Source: a virus. From it: a DNA stretch of 23,701 bases. The stretch spans positions 1 to 23,701 of IMG/VR virus record IMGVR_UViG_3300043772_001164. One strand, written 5' to 3'. Every line of letters begins with the position of its first letter. Within the stretch, counting starts at the first letter, position 1. Positions 36-11,281 of this stretch are shown here, in pieces. Under the pieces are notes generated by a model that ran no database searches, had not been told where the DNA came from, and saw only the letters and a program-made list of their open reading frames with translations. The translations under genes were made by a program, and so were the position numbers.

Positions 36-545
36 ATGAGATTTATTTTACTATTCAGTATAATACCATTAGGTATAATTGCACAATATAATTATTGTGA
101 TAAGGATTTAGAAATAAAGCTCACAACGCAACCTAATTTAAGTTACAATTGGAATGTGGATGGATACATCACTACAGAACAGGATGCAACATTGAATATA
201 AATCGTATCGGAACGTTTCAAATCGTATTAGAAATTACTAATGAATTTGGCTGCACATCAATTGAAAAGAAAATAATACAAGCAGACGAATGCAAAGAAT
301 GGACTTACTACGCTCCAAATGCTTTTGTTCCGGATGGTGAAAATAAAACTTGGATACCAAAAGGAGAAAATATTACAATAGATTTAATTACCATTTACAC
401 ACGCGAAGGGCAAATAATATTTGAAGGTGTGTCAGAATGGGATGGTGGAAAGTATCCAGGTGGAGTTTACGTTTACACCTGTGATTACACCACTATTTTA
501 GGGACCAAGTACAGAGATTTAGGACGCGTAACTTTGGTGCGCTAA
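36..545 (+). CDS. Secreted protein with T9SS type-B sorting (CHU_C-like) domain
   Basis: This 169-aa protein has three visible parts. Residues 1-16 are a hydrophobic signal peptide ending ...GIIA before Q17. Residues 20-80 resemble a PKD-like beta domain ending in a typical EFGC turn. Residues 91-169 match the gliding-motility-associated C-terminal domain: APNAFVPDG (93-101), WDG (135-137), PGGVYVYTCDY (141-151) and a terminal GRVTLVR. In Bacteroidota that domain directs export through the type IX secretion system to the cell surface; T9SS exists in the host, not in phages. It is the only plus-strand gene in the window and converges on the holin-like gene, their stop codons overlapping. Its own -7 element lies 3 nt upstream. 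It could be a conversion or exclusion factor shown on the infected cell, or a virion component that borrows the fold. The domain call is firm; the function is inferred. Confidence 0.8.
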   Translation: MRFILLFSIIPLGIIAQYNYCDKDLEIKLTTQPNLSYNWNVDGYITTEQDATLNINRIGTFQIVLEITNEFGCTSIEKKIIQADECKEWTYYAPNAFVPDGENKTWIPKGENITIDLITIYTREGQIIFEGVSEWDGGKYPGGVYVYTCDYTTILGTKYRDLGRVTLVR

Positions 546-736
546 ATTCCCTTTTTACGTCTTGTATTCTTTTGCTTCCTTACCCATTCAATCAATTTTA
601 CACAAGCAAAAAACATTGCAATTGTAGCAGCAAAAAACTGAAATATTACAGTTAGTTCATGCAAGAATGAAAGTAGAAAACTAATAAACATTATTACCCA
701 ACCTGTAAAACCTGTTCCTTCGTTGTGCTGTTCCAT
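542..736 (-). CDS. Holin-like small membrane protein
   Basis: The 64-aa protein has two closely spaced hydrophobic segments (about residues 11-27 and 29-49) joined by a short HELT turn and a strongly basic tail (RKQKNTRRKKGI). That is the usual shape of a small phage holin, which would open the inner membrane to end the lytic cycle. It is the last gene of the minus-strand late operon, after the fibre gene, a common position for lysis genes. Its ATG overlaps the preceding stop as TAATG, indicating coupled translation. No endolysin lies in the window. There is no sequence motif that proves holin function, so the call rests on topology and position; another small phage membrane protein is possible. 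Confidence 0.55.
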   Translation of the reverse strand: MEQHNEGTGFTGWVIMFISFLLSFLHELTVIFQFFAATIAMFFACVKLIEWVRKQKNTRRKKGI

Positions 737-4653: not shown

Positions 4654-5712
4654 TTATGCGTTTTTTACTTCAATTTCATTCAAGTAATTTACTCCGTAGA
4701 AGTCATCACCAACATAGAACATATTGTCCGGTAAAGTAATGATTTGCGTCTGAGCAGTAACAGAAATTGAAAGTTCACCTGGACAGTCATCCTTGAACAA
4801 GATGTCAACAGGAACACCCGCGCGTGTGAATGCACCTAATCTAACATAGTTAGAACCTTGGATTGCTGCAGGAGGGAAACCATCTTTCCAACCAGCTAAC
4901 TGGTAAGATAACAATTGAACCGCACCTGGTTGAGTAACGATAGCTTTGTTTGGAGAACCTAAAGCAGAAGCAATACGCTTGTCATAAGCGAAAGCAGTAC
5001 CAAACATTCTTAATAATTCTTGAATGTTCAATCCGCTGTTAGTGCAGCAACCCGCCATTGCACGTTGGAATGCAGAATTGAAAGCAGGTCCACCAAAAGC
5101 AACTTCATTACCTGAGTAATTAGACATTGCAGTAGCTTGCTTTAATGTTTGTAACCATCCTGTTTGTTCACCTGTATTGAAACGTGTTGGAAGTTCAAGA
5201 ACATTAGAAGCAATTACACCTTCAGGATTTCCAGCTGTGTAGTAAGCTTCTGCAGAAGTTGAAAAGCTACCAATCAATGAAGCTACTTCTGTTGCAGATT
5301 GTGTTGCTACAGCTCTATCAATTACATCTAAATGCAAAGCTAATTTCTGATTCAATAACGCTGCATTGTTTGTGCAATATTCAGCAATATCTTCAGGGGA
5401 TAATGTTTCACCAGAAGTAATTGCAGGGTTAGTGATTTCGTACTCTTTTGTATTGTCACCAATAGCATCAAAAGGACCGCAAGCACCTTGCTCAGTTACT
5501 TGTGATTCTGGTAAACGTGGGAAGAAAGAAAGTTTAACTGTTCTTTTTTTTCCACCACCTGGAGCAACAAGTTGTGTAATTGCACGTGTGTTAACAGGAG
5601 AGTTTATGAACTCTAAAAATGGAAGCATCTCAGGTGCTTGACCTAATCCAAAAGCTTCAGAAAGTCCGGTTTGAATAGCGGGACATGCGCTATATATCGA
5701 GTTTAAAGACAT
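4654..5712 (-). CDS. Major capsid protein
   Basis: The 352-aa protein follows the scaffold gene and has its own promoter and terminator-insulated leader, as expected for the most abundant head protein. It has the composition of an HK97-fold capsid protein: an N-terminal arm (MSLNSIYSACPAIQTGLSEAF), a loop region rich in Gly and Lys (VAPGGGKKRTVKLSFF, about residues 48-63), a long helical spine segment (LSPEDIAEYCTNNAALLNQKLALHLDVIDRAV) and a mixed A-domain ending in beta strands. A CC pair occurs in MAGCCTNSG. By eye its codons look less AT-rich than in neighbouring genes, fitting high expression. No protease is encoded next to it, and the N-terminal arm gives no clear cleavage signal. Confidence 0.72.
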   Translation of the reverse strand: MSLNSIYSACPAIQTGLSEAFGLGQAPEMLPFLEFINSPVNTRAITQLVAPGGGKKRTVKLSFFPRLPESQVTEQGACGPFDAIGDNTKEYEITNPAITSGETLSPEDIAEYCTNNAALLNQKLALHLDVIDRAVATQSATEVASLIGSFSTSAEAYYTAGNPEGVIASNVLELPTRFNTGEQTGWLQTLKQATAMSNYSGNEVAFGGPAFNSAFQRAMAGCCTNSGLNIQELLRMFGTAFAYDKRIASALGSPNKAIVTQPGAVQLLSYQLAGWKDGFPPAAIQGSNYVRLGAFTRAGVPVDILFKDDCPGELSISVTAQTQIITLPDNMFYVGDDFYGVNYLNEIEVKNA

Positions 5713-5779
5713 TGTTTTATGTATTTATGATTTATGTTCTGTATAATGGTCGAACAAATCACCACAGGTTACATCTACA

Positions 5780-5800
5780 ATGCTGATGTTAAGCACAAGT
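5780..5800 (-). promoter_or_regulatory. Bipartite leader motif shared with the probable tail tube gene
   Basis: Read on the minus strand, ACTTGTGC (5800-5793) is followed after 7 nt by CAGCAT (5785-5780). The same two words, 10 nt apart, occur at 11925-11902 in the leader of the probable tail tube gene. In both cases the first word starts about 10-12 nt after the predicted transcription start. GUGC and GCAU could pair to form a short stem. It may be a translation or mRNA-stability element for abundant virion proteins; chance remains possible with only two copies. Confidence 0.35.
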
Positions 5801-5812
5801 GCCAATAATTTT

Positions 5813-5846
5813 ACAAATATAAATAAAATAAATAAAAAAGCCACAA
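5813..5846 (-). promoter_or_regulatory. Promoter of the major capsid operon
   Basis: TATATTTGT (5821-5813) matches the Bacteroidota -7 element, with a TTG (5846-5844) 22 nt upstream as -33 element. That TTG lies in the 3' arm of the terminator hairpin that ends the scaffold operon, so terminator and promoter share DNA. Predicted transcription start is near 5810, giving a leader of about 100 nt before the capsid ATG at 5712. Confidence 0.6.
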
Positions 5847-5865
5847 GAAACTTAATCCTTGTGGC
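5834..5865 (-). terminator. Rho-independent terminator after the scaffold gene
   Basis: On the minus strand an 8-bp perfect stem, GCCACAAG (5865-5858) with CTTGTGGC (5847-5840), encloses a 10-nt loop and is followed by TTTTTT (5839-5834). It lies 23 nt past the scaffold stop and would separate scaffold from capsid transcription. Confidence 0.85.
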
Positions 5866-5887
5866 TAAACTTAAAACTATAATTAAA

Positions 5888-6721
5888 TTAAAACTTACCA
5901 GACATTAATCTTGCACGTTCCGAAACAATACTTGGTGTTGGTATCCCTTGTGGTTCTTGTTTGTGTTCTATTTTCTTTGGTGCTTCTTTACCGTCGTGAG
6001 GTGACAAAGATATTAGCTTATTTGCAGCAGCTTCCATTTCAAACAATTCTCCAAAGTCAGCAAATCCCGCTTTTTTCTTTGATTGAATTCTTGCATTTGT
6101 AGCTAAGTCAACAACAAAAGGTTTTTCTTCTTCGTCCAATTCAATTTTATACTTTGAATTAAGATGTGCATTGAATCCAACCAATGTTAATTGGTCAAGA
6201 TCTGATCTTAACTTAATTTCTTTGATTGCTTCTTTTTTGTATTCGTTAATCTTGGAATTACGTTTTTCAGTCTTAACATTTAAATCCAATTCTTCATATT
6301 GCTTTTGCAAAGATGTAACAAGCCCCGTTGTTTCTTCTAACTTTTTCTTTTGGCTTTCATACTTCTTTTCCCATGCTTTCACAGCCTCGTCACCACCTCC
6401 ACTTGTAGATTTAATTTCTTCAAACTTGTTCTTGACTTTTGCGCTTCCAATCTTTAAAATTTCTTCTAACTTTTTCCCCTTTATTTCTTCAGGTTCAAAC
6501 TCTACTCCAATTCCTTTGTATTCGCGTATCGCTTCAGTCTGCAAACTTCCAAGTCTTGAACCAACTACTTTTGAAATAATTGCTTCGTCTTTTATTGCTT
6601 CGCTTTTACGGATGAAATCATTACCAAATAAATCTTTGGCAGCATCAATAGTTTCTGTTGTTTCGGGATCTATTCCCATGAACTTTATAAGTTCAATTGC
6701 TTCTTCTGGTTTTATAGGCAT
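5888..6721 (-). CDS. Capsid scaffolding protein
   Basis: The 277-aa product is almost entirely helical and highly charged, with a Lys/Glu-rich coiled-coil stretch around residues 115-175 (EAVKAWEKKYESQKKKLEE and following). It lies immediately before the major capsid gene, the usual place for a scaffold that guides procapsid assembly and leaves before DNA packaging. The C-terminal tail (PSIVSERARLMSGKF) is basic, as is typical for the capsid-contacting end of scaffolds. No Ser-His-Asp protease domain is seen. It follows the 71-aa gene by 12 nt and ends at a strong terminator, so scaffold output is controlled apart from capsid output. Confidence 0.75.
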   Translation of the reverse strand: MPIKPEEAIELIKFMGIDPETTETIDAAKDLFGNDFIRKSEAIKDEAIISKVVGSRLGSLQTEAIREYKGIGVEFEPEEIKGKKLEEILKIGSAKVKNKFEEIKSTSGGGDEAVKAWEKKYESQKKKLEETTGLVTSLQKQYEELDLNVKTEKRNSKINEYKKEAIKEIKLRSDLDQLTLVGFNAHLNSKYKIELDEEEKPFVVDLATNARIQSKKKAGFADFGELFEMEAAANKLISLSPHDGKEAPKKIEHKQEPQGIPTPSIVSERARLMSGKF

Positions 6722-9743: not shown

Positions 9744-9859
9744 TTAACTTTAGTTTTAGTTTTTAGTGTTGCTTCACCTTCGTAGTTAGCACCTTTTTTA
9801 CCACCACAGCAAGCCTTTACGCTGCATGTAACTATTACTTTTTTTGCTGAATTTTTCAT
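9737..9859 (-). CDS. Small 40-aa Cys-rich basic protein
   Basis: This ORF starts with an ATGA overlap on the methyltransferase stop (9859-9856) and its TAA lies inside the portal start (9739-9737), so it bridges two genes with no spare bases. The product has four Cys (one TC, one ACC pair, one at the C-terminus), a GGKKG turn and many Lys. It has no membrane segment. I do not recognise it. Position suggests a link either to the sugar-modifying pair upstream or to the portal. It is too short for routine gene callers, and its support is the coupling geometry and a composition unlike random sequence. Confidence 0.6.
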   Translation of the reverse strand: MKNSAKKVIVTCSVKACCGGKKGANYEGEATLKTKTKVKC

Positions 9860-10407
9860 GCCTTAGTTATTAATGTTAATCCTCTATTATCTGGTGTGCG
9901 TAATTTAAGAATATTATATCCATAATTGGAAATGTAATCCATTAATCTTGCAACATCTTCAATATGGTCTGTATCATGGTAAGCAATAACACCACCTGAA
10001 GCAATCCACTTTTCAACAATCTTCCATTCAGGAAGTATGTGCTGCCAATGGTGCATTGAATCTACAAATATAAAATCAAATTTGTCTGTGAAATCTTGAA
10101 ATGTTGAAGCTTCTGTTGAACTTCCTTTTATAAAATCCGCAACCGCCCCTTTGTTTGCCTTCCATTTAGAAGTTCTAAAATCACCAATGTCAATGCCTGC
10201 AAAATAAGAATCTTTAGGCATGTTTTTAATGATTTCAACAGACGTTTCACCCTGAAAAACACCTATTTCAAGTGCGCGTTTAGGCTGTATCATTGCAACC
10301 AAAGCACCCACAAAAGAACAAACTTCTGCTTCACTATTCCATAAATGACGTTCCCCATCTACTTTAGCGTCATTCATCATTTGCTCTATTTCACCGTTTG
10401 TTAGCAT
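9856..10407 (-). CDS. Class I SAM-dependent methyltransferase
   Basis: The 183-aa protein shows the class I fold: motif I RALEIGVFQGETS (about residues 44-56) for SAM binding, an acidic GID at 71-73 after strand 2, FDFIFVDSMHHWQ in strand 4, and GGVIAYHDTDH in strand 5. The VD...H and YHDTDH motifs resemble small-molecule or sugar O-methyltransferases (the Methyltransf_24 type) and not DNA methylases: there is no (D/N)PPY or PC motif. It overlaps the glycosyltransferase by 17 nt, so the pair is probably made together and may build a methylated sugar. The acceptor cannot be read from sequence. Confidence 0.82.
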   Translation of the reverse strand: MLTNGEIEQMMNDAKVDGERHLWNSEAEVCSFVGALVAMIQPKRALEIGVFQGETSVEIIKNMPKDSYFAGIDIGDFRTSKWKANKGAVADFIKGSSTEASTFQDFTDKFDFIFVDSMHHWQHILPEWKIVEKWIASGGVIAYHDTDHIEDVARLMDYISNYGYNILKLRTPDNRGLTLITKA

Positions 10408-11281
10408 GTTTGTCTGTTATTATCTTATCAAGTGTGTAATTATGATTAATGCCCTTTGCAAAGTGCAAGTCACGTAATATTTTATCACACCAATCTGTGT
10501 AAAACTTATTGGTGAATCCTTTGCCCCCATAATAAGATTGTAAATAAAATTTTTCTCTTACTTCCAATGTTGTTAATGTTCTTTTCATGGCAAAGTGAAT
10601 CATTCCTTCTTTGTCATCATTACCTTTACCATCAATTGAAGGATCAATTCCTAATGCAGCTAATGCAACATTCATGTATAATTCATCTGGTTGCACACCG
10701 CCCCACTTCATTCTTAATTTTGCCAATGGATTTTGATAAAACTCCAATGCTTTTTTGTAGATTGGTTCCGCTCCTACCTTATTAATCCAAACTAAACTTG
10801 AATTTATTGCTGGCAAAACTGCTTCTTCAGACAATCCAAAGTGCGCCCACAAATCATTTGCCCAAGCCCATTGCATGGATGGGATGTCGTTCCCTTCTTT
10901 TAATGTGTGATAACCAACTGTATGTGCTATGTATGGTTTGTTTGCACCTTGCAATTGTGCAATTAATGGTGTAATATCTTTTACAGCAACCGCGTCAACA
11001 TCCAAATAAAGCGCATTGTCTGTGGTTATGTAATGGTGTAAATGTAATTTACTCCATGCTGGATCATTATTTCTAATGTGACCAAGTTCCATTTCAATTA
11101 TAGAATCGAAAAGTTCTATCCTGTGTCCAATATTTTTTGTAAGGTTTGCAAGAGAATCAACAATCAGATGTATTGGAGTATTGCACCCCAATTCTTTAAT
11201 AGAAAATGCAATGTTGTAAGCTGCGAAGTAATAACCTCGTTTGCCAAATGCCATTAAAATAATTGCTGTTGATTTGCTCAT
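10391..11281 (-). CDS. GT-A type glycosyltransferase (GT8-like)
   Basis: The 296-aa protein carries a GT-A signature: an N-terminal nucleotide-binding strand (STAIILMAFGKRGYYFA), a KLHLHHYI helix (78-85) and YLDVDAVAV (92-100) with the DVD metal/UDP-sugar motif at 94-96. A later NSSLVWIN and QPDELYMN fit the acceptor half. The ATG comes directly after the T-run of the preceding terminator, so expression probably relies on read-through. With the overlapping methyltransferase it forms a sugar-modification pair embedded in structural genes. Possible targets are virion proteins, phage DNA bases or a host surface glycan; virion decoration fits the late position best. Confidence 0.75.
   Translation of the reverse strand: MSKSTAIILMAFGKRGYYFAAYNIAFSIKELGCNTPIHLIVDSLANLTKNIGHRIELFDSIIEMELGHIRNNDPAWSKLHLHHYITTDNALYLDVDAVAVKDITPLIAQLQGANKPYIAHTVGYHTLKEGNDIPSMQWAWANDLWAHFGLSEEAVLPAINSSLVWINKVGAEPIYKKALEFYQNPLAKLRMKWGGVQPDELYMNVALAALGIDPSIDGKGNDDKEGMIHFAMKRTLTTLEVREKFYLQSYYGGKGFTNKFYTDWCDKILRDLHFAKGINHNYTLDKIITDKHANKR

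Follow-up and report, generated by a model that had tools for sequence, protein, structure and literature searches.

A phage gene for a type-B T9SS sorting-like protein, with split and one-chain counterparts in IMG/VR viral contigs

The T9SS and the gliding proteins of the host are needed by several flavobacterial phages. Type-B cargo of this system is known in bacteria, and a few phage copies already carry automatic names in the databases. The closest described relative of the protein considered here is the type-B C-terminal domain (CTD) represented by CHU_C (PF13585) and TIGR04131 and typified by SprB of Flavobacterium johnsoniae, with which it shares a Sec signal and a C-terminal Ig-like domain. 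Type-B substrates require both Sec and the C-terminal domain and are taken by a PorP/SprF shuttle (PMC12618676, PMC9143113 and PMC10202324). According to the first of these papers (PMC12618676), a type-B CTD of 150-235 aa is both required and enough for secretion, the CTD sets the final location on the cell, and each of five motifs, A-E, is needed for secretion of SprB. In one open-access library, outside of which subscription papers and preprints mostly lie, we met with no publication that treats type-B cargo encoded by phages or the split form of such cargo. As for related phages, the available part of PMC12619734 contains no occurrence of gliding, adhesin or PKD, and that of PMC13269007 mentions the T9SS in passing only.

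The window analysed here covers all 23,701 bases of a linear IMG/VR virus record for which no end repeat is reported; at its start, a sequence-only reading had noticed a 169-aa gene for a protein with a host-type sorting domain. We call its product the tail protein, from its place in the proposed split kit. The ATG-initiated reading frame is present as claimed and is encoded, in the same position, on seven other IMG/VR phage contigs (about 60-95% identity). The seven-member protein alignment omits L006, the best-segment values of which are those of L005; in it, the window protein is 95, 75, 73, 73, 74 and 61% identical to its six relatives. The NG86 dN/dS ratio is 0.11-0.17 in five of the six comparisons, dS being saturated against L008. 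Given the seven homologous contigs and the low dN/dS, 36-545 is a genuine gene rather than a chance ORF. A family-profile search placed it in eight of the 13 records of the window's phage group, the five records without it being fragments of 4.2 to 18.1 kb. The window tail protein has no match in PHROGs. Among 50,697 annotated phage records, no cultured phage carries a homologue and two metagenomic megaphages match; the assignment of the virus to a Bacteroidota host is hence presumptive. A plasmid collection gave one weak match to the tail protein, in Chryseobacterium (E 3e-3), and three matches to the propeller protein described below.

Table 1. Features at the start of the window and the evidence for each.
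Position	Strand	Feature	Basis
36..545	+	Gene for 169-aa type-B T9SS sorting-like protein (gene 3, or tail subunit, of the proposed kit)	ATG ORF, seven relatives, dN/dS
36..86	+	Putative Sec signal peptide, residues 1-17, cleavage placed by eye between LGIIAQ and Y	Hydrophobicity heuristic; kept in 7/7 aligned members
87..293	+	Ig/PKD-like domain, approximately residues 18-86	Alignment, PKD matches in some members, model strands
294..542	+	CHU_C-like (T9SS type-B CTD-like) domain, residues 87-169, ending GRVTLVR	Alignments, profiles, AlphaFold2
542..736	-	Holin candidate, a membrane protein of 64 aa whose gene closes the late operon; a neighbour, separate from the tail protein	Position-equivalent gene of L007

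Two of the features named in the sequence-only reading held up. The N-terminus is Sec-like, with MRFILLFSIIPLGIIAQ preceding the putative cleavage site before Y, and by the hydrophobicity heuristic its hydrophobic core reaches 2.81, the third highest among 28 ORFs. The PKD-like region is borne out by PKD families, which match some members, and by the structural model (Z 7.5 against the ColG PKD domain). Cysteines C21, C73 and C86 are invariant in the seven aligned members. The CHU_C-like domain forms the extreme C-terminus (residues 87-169 of 169) and is the most conserved part of the protein in the same alignment; the mature protein comprises approximately 152 aa and has no passenger. The description of this domain as complete stands only in part. 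All seven family members match PF13585 (best 4.7e-6), but the window protein remains below the cut-offs (18.1 bits against 27 for Pfam CHU_C; not reported by TIGR04131) and its signature is altered. The L008 member reaches 1.7e-4 and 21.7 bits with TIGR04131, the cut-off being 35. As these scores lie under the curated cut-offs, the window protein is a divergent relative of CHU_C and TIGR04131 and no certified member. In alignments with canonical phage members, three stretches (WDG, GGVYVY and G.VTL.R) are kept, the PNAF.P.G motif is shortened, with two residues fewer after PNAFxPDG, and NRWG is changed to TREG.

Homology to the type-B sorting domains was assessed with profiles and models. The window tail protein scored 62.6 bits against a held-out profile, which was built solely from 57 CHU_C sequences of other phages; the best of 7000 shuffles scored 15.7. 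By blastp the protein also matches the phage mini-proteins of 187-189 aa described below, mostly over the whole length (best 1e-13, L055), and all 20 of them (13 distinct) match. A larger profile was built of 64 sequences, including 57 distinct ones from the 80 CHU_C loci that were kept; TIGR04131 is reported for 59 of the 64 at E 0.01. With the 64 sequences as input, AlphaFold2 yielded a model with a mean pLDDT of 85 and block means of 89-96 over residues 91-169, and a model from seven close sequences was discarded (pLDDT 41). The best viral Foldseek matches (1.7e-14 and 3.2e-12, both in uncultured phages) are named 'Gliding motility-associated, C-terminal domain'. The matches in the PDB are generic Ig-like folds, none with a Z above 8.2. 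They include RgpB with its type-A CTD (5ag8; Z 6.4, 64 aligned residues, 2.3 A), but as it does not rise above the background, and unrelated Ig proteins score equally, we do not rest the case on the fold. In the tree, a long branch separates the window-type tails from the mini clade, and the split form requires two changes, which is the minimum for three groups. Taken as a whole, the claim of a phage gene for a predicted Sec-exported, T9SS type-B-like protein is supported by the relatives, the synteny and the held-out profile.

The canonical CHU_C profile in IMG/VR viral contigs produced 229 pattern matches, of which 196 were confirmed, and 80 of the confirmed stretches were examined. They fall into mini-proteins of 187-189 aa (n = 20), proteins of at least 600 aa (n = 57) and three others, two of which are open at the contig end and one of which has 409 aa. 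The 57 long loci encode a single SprB-like chain; one long phage protein carries SprB repeats, a PKD-like domain and CHU_C, and one mini-protein passes the Pfam CHU_C cut-off with 49.9 bits. Both the long and the mini form occur in at least three (G021, G022 and G032) of the 34 records searched. The large family profile matched 34 of 34 records, which had been chosen for carrying the family, so this figure is a sensitivity check only. LR745206, a 634-kb uncultured megaphage, has four type-B-like matches (L020:4342-6540 and three further places), and its 732-aa type-B-like protein (LR745206.1) passes the TIGR04131 cut-off (41.8 against 35). Phage-encoded type-B cargo thus looks common in IMG/VR, and the class looks large. 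Type-A cargo, too, may occur in phages: two genes before a mini operon, a 713-aa phage protein (L066:3473-5614) combines CUB and GEVED domains with a type-A T9SS tail that is weak, at 20 bits against 27.

At all 20 mini loci, the mini-protein is the third of a tandem of separately exported pieces. Directly upstream, with a gap of -1, 0 or 18 bases, lies an exported gene of approximately 190 aa, the product of which is 43-56% identical to approximately residues 483-643 of the 812-820-aa chains. It is preceded by a further exported gene; three forms of the latter match the SprB-repeat part of the chains, and its common 200-aa form has no chain match at 1e-4. H[ND] is the C-terminal ending of all 40 partners (12 and 13 distinct) and of none of the 197 remaining plus-strand ORFs with 100 aa or more at these loci. 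When the long chains were searched for the motif in a looser, internal form, none of them had it. The tag at these 20 loci (L037-L100) reads PI.H[ND] or close to it, for example in L078:6536-7713.

The window group apparently encodes a comparable set, judged by sequence: a split kit of a propeller head (about 434 aa), a middle piece (about 195 aa) and the tail, beside a CHAP endolysin. The propeller gene is present in all seven other window-type records, and the 195-aa gene in five of the seven. The 195-aa protein corresponds to the central part of the phage proteins made as one chain (4e-6; 34 bits by HMM, best shuffle 8.8). The 434-aa propeller matches residues 86-438 of a 1819-aa type-B protein of Hymenobacter tibetensis at 1e-21, and the window tail matches residues 1734-1811 of the same protein at 1e-5. 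No recognised CTD was found in the middle and head pieces. They end in [IL]GF (ILGF or IIGF) and are without the H[ND] ending of the mini-locus partners; the endings were seen in L002:4214-4801 and 4807-6111 and in the equivalents of L003, L004 and L008. The final Phe is reminiscent of the signal with which outer-membrane barrels end; no result obtained marked the ILGF/IIGF partners as barrels. Tentatively, the PI.H[ND] and [IL].GF tags might join the exported subunits to the tail, either non-covalently by strand insertion or covalently, with the tail exporting and anchoring the complex through the T9SS.

As for its genomic position, the gene had been placed inside the phage late region. It does adjoin the late operon on the opposite strand, but it sits at the edge, in convergent orientation and with a four-base overlap with the gene at 542-736. 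In eight of eight records it converges on the late operon, and all structural genes lie on the other strand. In the relatives, the tail gene is the last or next-to-last of an opposite-strand operon with a CHAP endolysin and further signal-peptide genes. The usual order is a small membrane protein, the signal-bearing CHAP-type endolysin (phrog_21357 at 9.7e-8), the 195-aa and 434-aa genes (both products predicted to be exported), small genes, usually a 400-aa gene (exonuclease / metallophosphoesterase family match, 8.4e-40) and the tail gene. The reading of the plus-strand operon as an early operon was rejected once the endolysin had been found in it.

The neighbour on the other side of the tail gene varies. 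It is the 64-aa membrane protein in the window and L008, a 235-aa gene followed by the 64-aa one in L003, a 235-aa gene with a 72-aa protein related to the 64-aa one behind it in L004-L006, and a 93- to 97-aa protein in L002 and L007. The L007 gene in this position matches holin phrog_4237 at 2e-5, and the window's own 64-aa copy has no PHROGs match below 0.05. The 235-aa protein, predicted to be exported and ending in YDLAGRLIR, separates the late operon from the tail gene on four contigs (e.g. L003:5337-6044, L004:4238-4945 and L005:2700-3407). By eye it resembles the region that precedes a type-A T9SS tail; this reading was dropped, as Pfam and NCBIfam gave no match for the L003, L004 and L005 copies. 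Another protein, at L002:442-1011 on the minus strand and with similar ones in G003 and G006, has a lipobox-like LLMYGC, a middle part that resembles a coiled coil, and a membrane segment at its C-terminus; by eye it looks like a one-piece spanin, PHROGs giving weak matches.

The suggestion of an own promoter for the tail gene found no support in the comparison. The motif TANNTTTG lies directly before the ATG in seven of eight relatives, too close for the usual transcription start, and it is frequent in the window (23 and 28 copies on the two strands). The pattern TTTG-N17-21-TANNTTTG is absent upstream of the tail gene in eight of eight records.

One relative, G006, is about 38.5 kb long and has an exact 123-base end repeat, hence it is complete. 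Another, G007, shares its cassette with the window group and is a different kind of phage: it has baseplate genes, a tail sheath (2.8e-78) and a terminase of another family; no tail sheath was found in the window's group. As the cassette is common to both kinds, it moves as a module, and the tail protein is tied to no single tail architecture. The window's own terminase was detected by PHROGs only, so a negative result with PF03237 or PF04466 does not mean that a record is not a phage: PF03237 (Terminase_6N) was found in 16 of 33 records, namely in 16 of the 29 from large phages and in none of the four window-type ones, and PF04466 in none of the 33. A 460-aa gene, glycosyltransferase-like by eye, is inserted between the middle and head genes at L021:2015-3397, and other relatives have DNA-methylase-like and other genes at the equivalent site; the variety of genes there makes the cassette an insertion hot spot. 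Inside the structural operon of the window, on the minus strand at 9856-11281, one gene is O-methyltransferase-like (PF13578, 5e-11) and another, of 296 aa, is glycosyltransferase-like by eye and has no Pfam match.

We consider it probable, though well short of certain, that the tail protein is the T9SS-addressed C-terminal subunit, for sorting and anchoring, of a surface adhesin which the phage makes in separate pieces and which relies on shuttles of the host. If so, the protein would be exported to the periplasm by Sec, and the host T9SS would then take its C-terminal domain. This would most likely proceed via a PorP/SprF-type shuttle of the host, as PorP/SprF was found in none of the 34 virus records (plasmid control found at 1.3e-76); a compatible host shuttle would therefore be required. 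The tail would thereby reach the surface, perhaps taking its partners along, and would be held on the outer face of the infected cell. The surface protein would be assembled of separately exported pieces in the window group, and in many larger phages it would consist of three tandem genes or of a long SprB-like chain. Its likely use would be a change of the surface late in infection, which may block further phage adsorption, and thus exclude superinfection, or alter adhesion. Counting against this reading are the scores below the curated cut-offs, the altered signature, the long window-type branch, and the head and middle pieces without a recognised CTD. As each of the five motifs is needed in SprB, the altered signature residues also mean that the window protein might not be secreted.

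The near-bare type-B signal could, alternatively, act as a decoy: by occupying the translocon or the SprF-type shuttles it would end the display of those host adhesins that serve as phage receptors. The mature protein is close in size to the minimal type-B signal (150-235 aa, PMC12618676), carries no passenger, and would have to compete for the host shuttle, none being encoded in the 34 virus records. Yet a decoy needs no partners, and partners are present at 20 of 20 mini loci, as is the propeller in seven of seven other window-type records; neither does it need long one-chain versions with SprB repeats, and the changed residues of the signature might weaken shuttle binding. We regard the decoy as unlikely, since the constant companions and the long one-chain versions fit a displayed adhesin better than a jamming decoy. 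The company of the gene in the relatives, namely an operon with the signal-bearing CHAP endolysin that abuts a holin candidate, would suit a periplasmic lysis or release factor, or else a periplasmic Ig-fold protein which no longer uses the T9SS, and the drift of the CTD signature points the same way. Under such a role, however, one has to account for the C-terminal domain being the most conserved part, with WDG, GGVYVY and G.VTL.R kept, and for the relatives in other phages, which are canonical type-B proteins outside a lysis context; we hold it to be decidedly unlikely.

The sequence-only reading had also offered a virion adhesin. Ig-like domains are common on virions, and phage Hoc (3shs, Z 6.2) and several virion proteins are among the structural neighbours of the model, which speaks for a virion component, be it a decoration or an adhesin with the same Ig fold. 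Such a role is less well supported and in our view very improbable, given the putative Sec signal, the coding of every structural gene on the other strand (eight of eight records), and the presence of the same cassette in a sheathed-tail phage and in the window group with its other terminase family. There was finally the possibility, named in the same reading as a refutation, that positions 1-545 are chromosomal DNA at the edge of a contig or the product of a chimeric assembly; the record indeed begins 35 bases 5' of the gene. Synteny refutes this, leaving it with next to no probability: the same gene in the same place is shared by seven other records, one of them complete by its 123-base end repeat. 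Two genome-contig scans, each made with two short peptide patterns and hence not implying absence from bacteria, returned no chromosomal homologue. The gene at 36-545 belongs to the phage and is not flanking host DNA.

If the reading as a surface adhesin subunit is true, phages of Bacteroidota display their own proteins on the host by way of its secretion and gliding machine, and superinfection exclusion, receptor masking and changed adhesion in Bacteroidota become directly testable with named genes. The split versions would then serve as a natural experiment on the minimal exportable part of a type-B protein and on the co-travel of partners without a sorting domain. If the kit is in addition joined by its tags, it would represent piggy-back export of such partners, built by a virus to remodel the host surface. 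The apparent size of the class, 196 confirmed stretches from one viral collection with one narrow pair of patterns, may be compared with two of 50,697 annotated phage records.

Against the SprB-type CTD, the motifs in common with the tail are PNAF.P.G, WDG, GVY.Y and G.VTL.R, and phage homologues pass the cut-offs; the window tail differs in being phage-encoded and below the cut-offs, in having TREG for NRWG, in being a near-bare signal, and in the lack of linked porP/sprF. The closest viral entries are A0A6J5NJX2 (187 aa) and A0A6J5L8Z9 (199 aa) of uncultured Caudovirales, which are similar to the tail in size and fold and are its best viral structure matches, the name 'Gliding motility-associated, C-terminal domain' being an automatic database name only; our literature searches yielded no description of either. 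GhpA, the grappling hook of Aureispira sp. (PDB 9flp and related), is matched by the 64-sequence profile at its C-terminal end (the last approximately 90 residues, 5798-5886 of 5898; 2.3e-35), and its repeats have a profile match at 7.5e-26, but it is one cellular protein of 5898 aa, whereas the phage version consists of separate small genes. The Hymenobacter tibetensis protein WP_243803310.1 (1819 aa) likewise joins in one chain the propeller and the type-B tail which correspond to two phage genes; it is cellular and has PorP/SprF next door, whereas the phage, with no shuttle of its own, keeps the two ends as separate genes.
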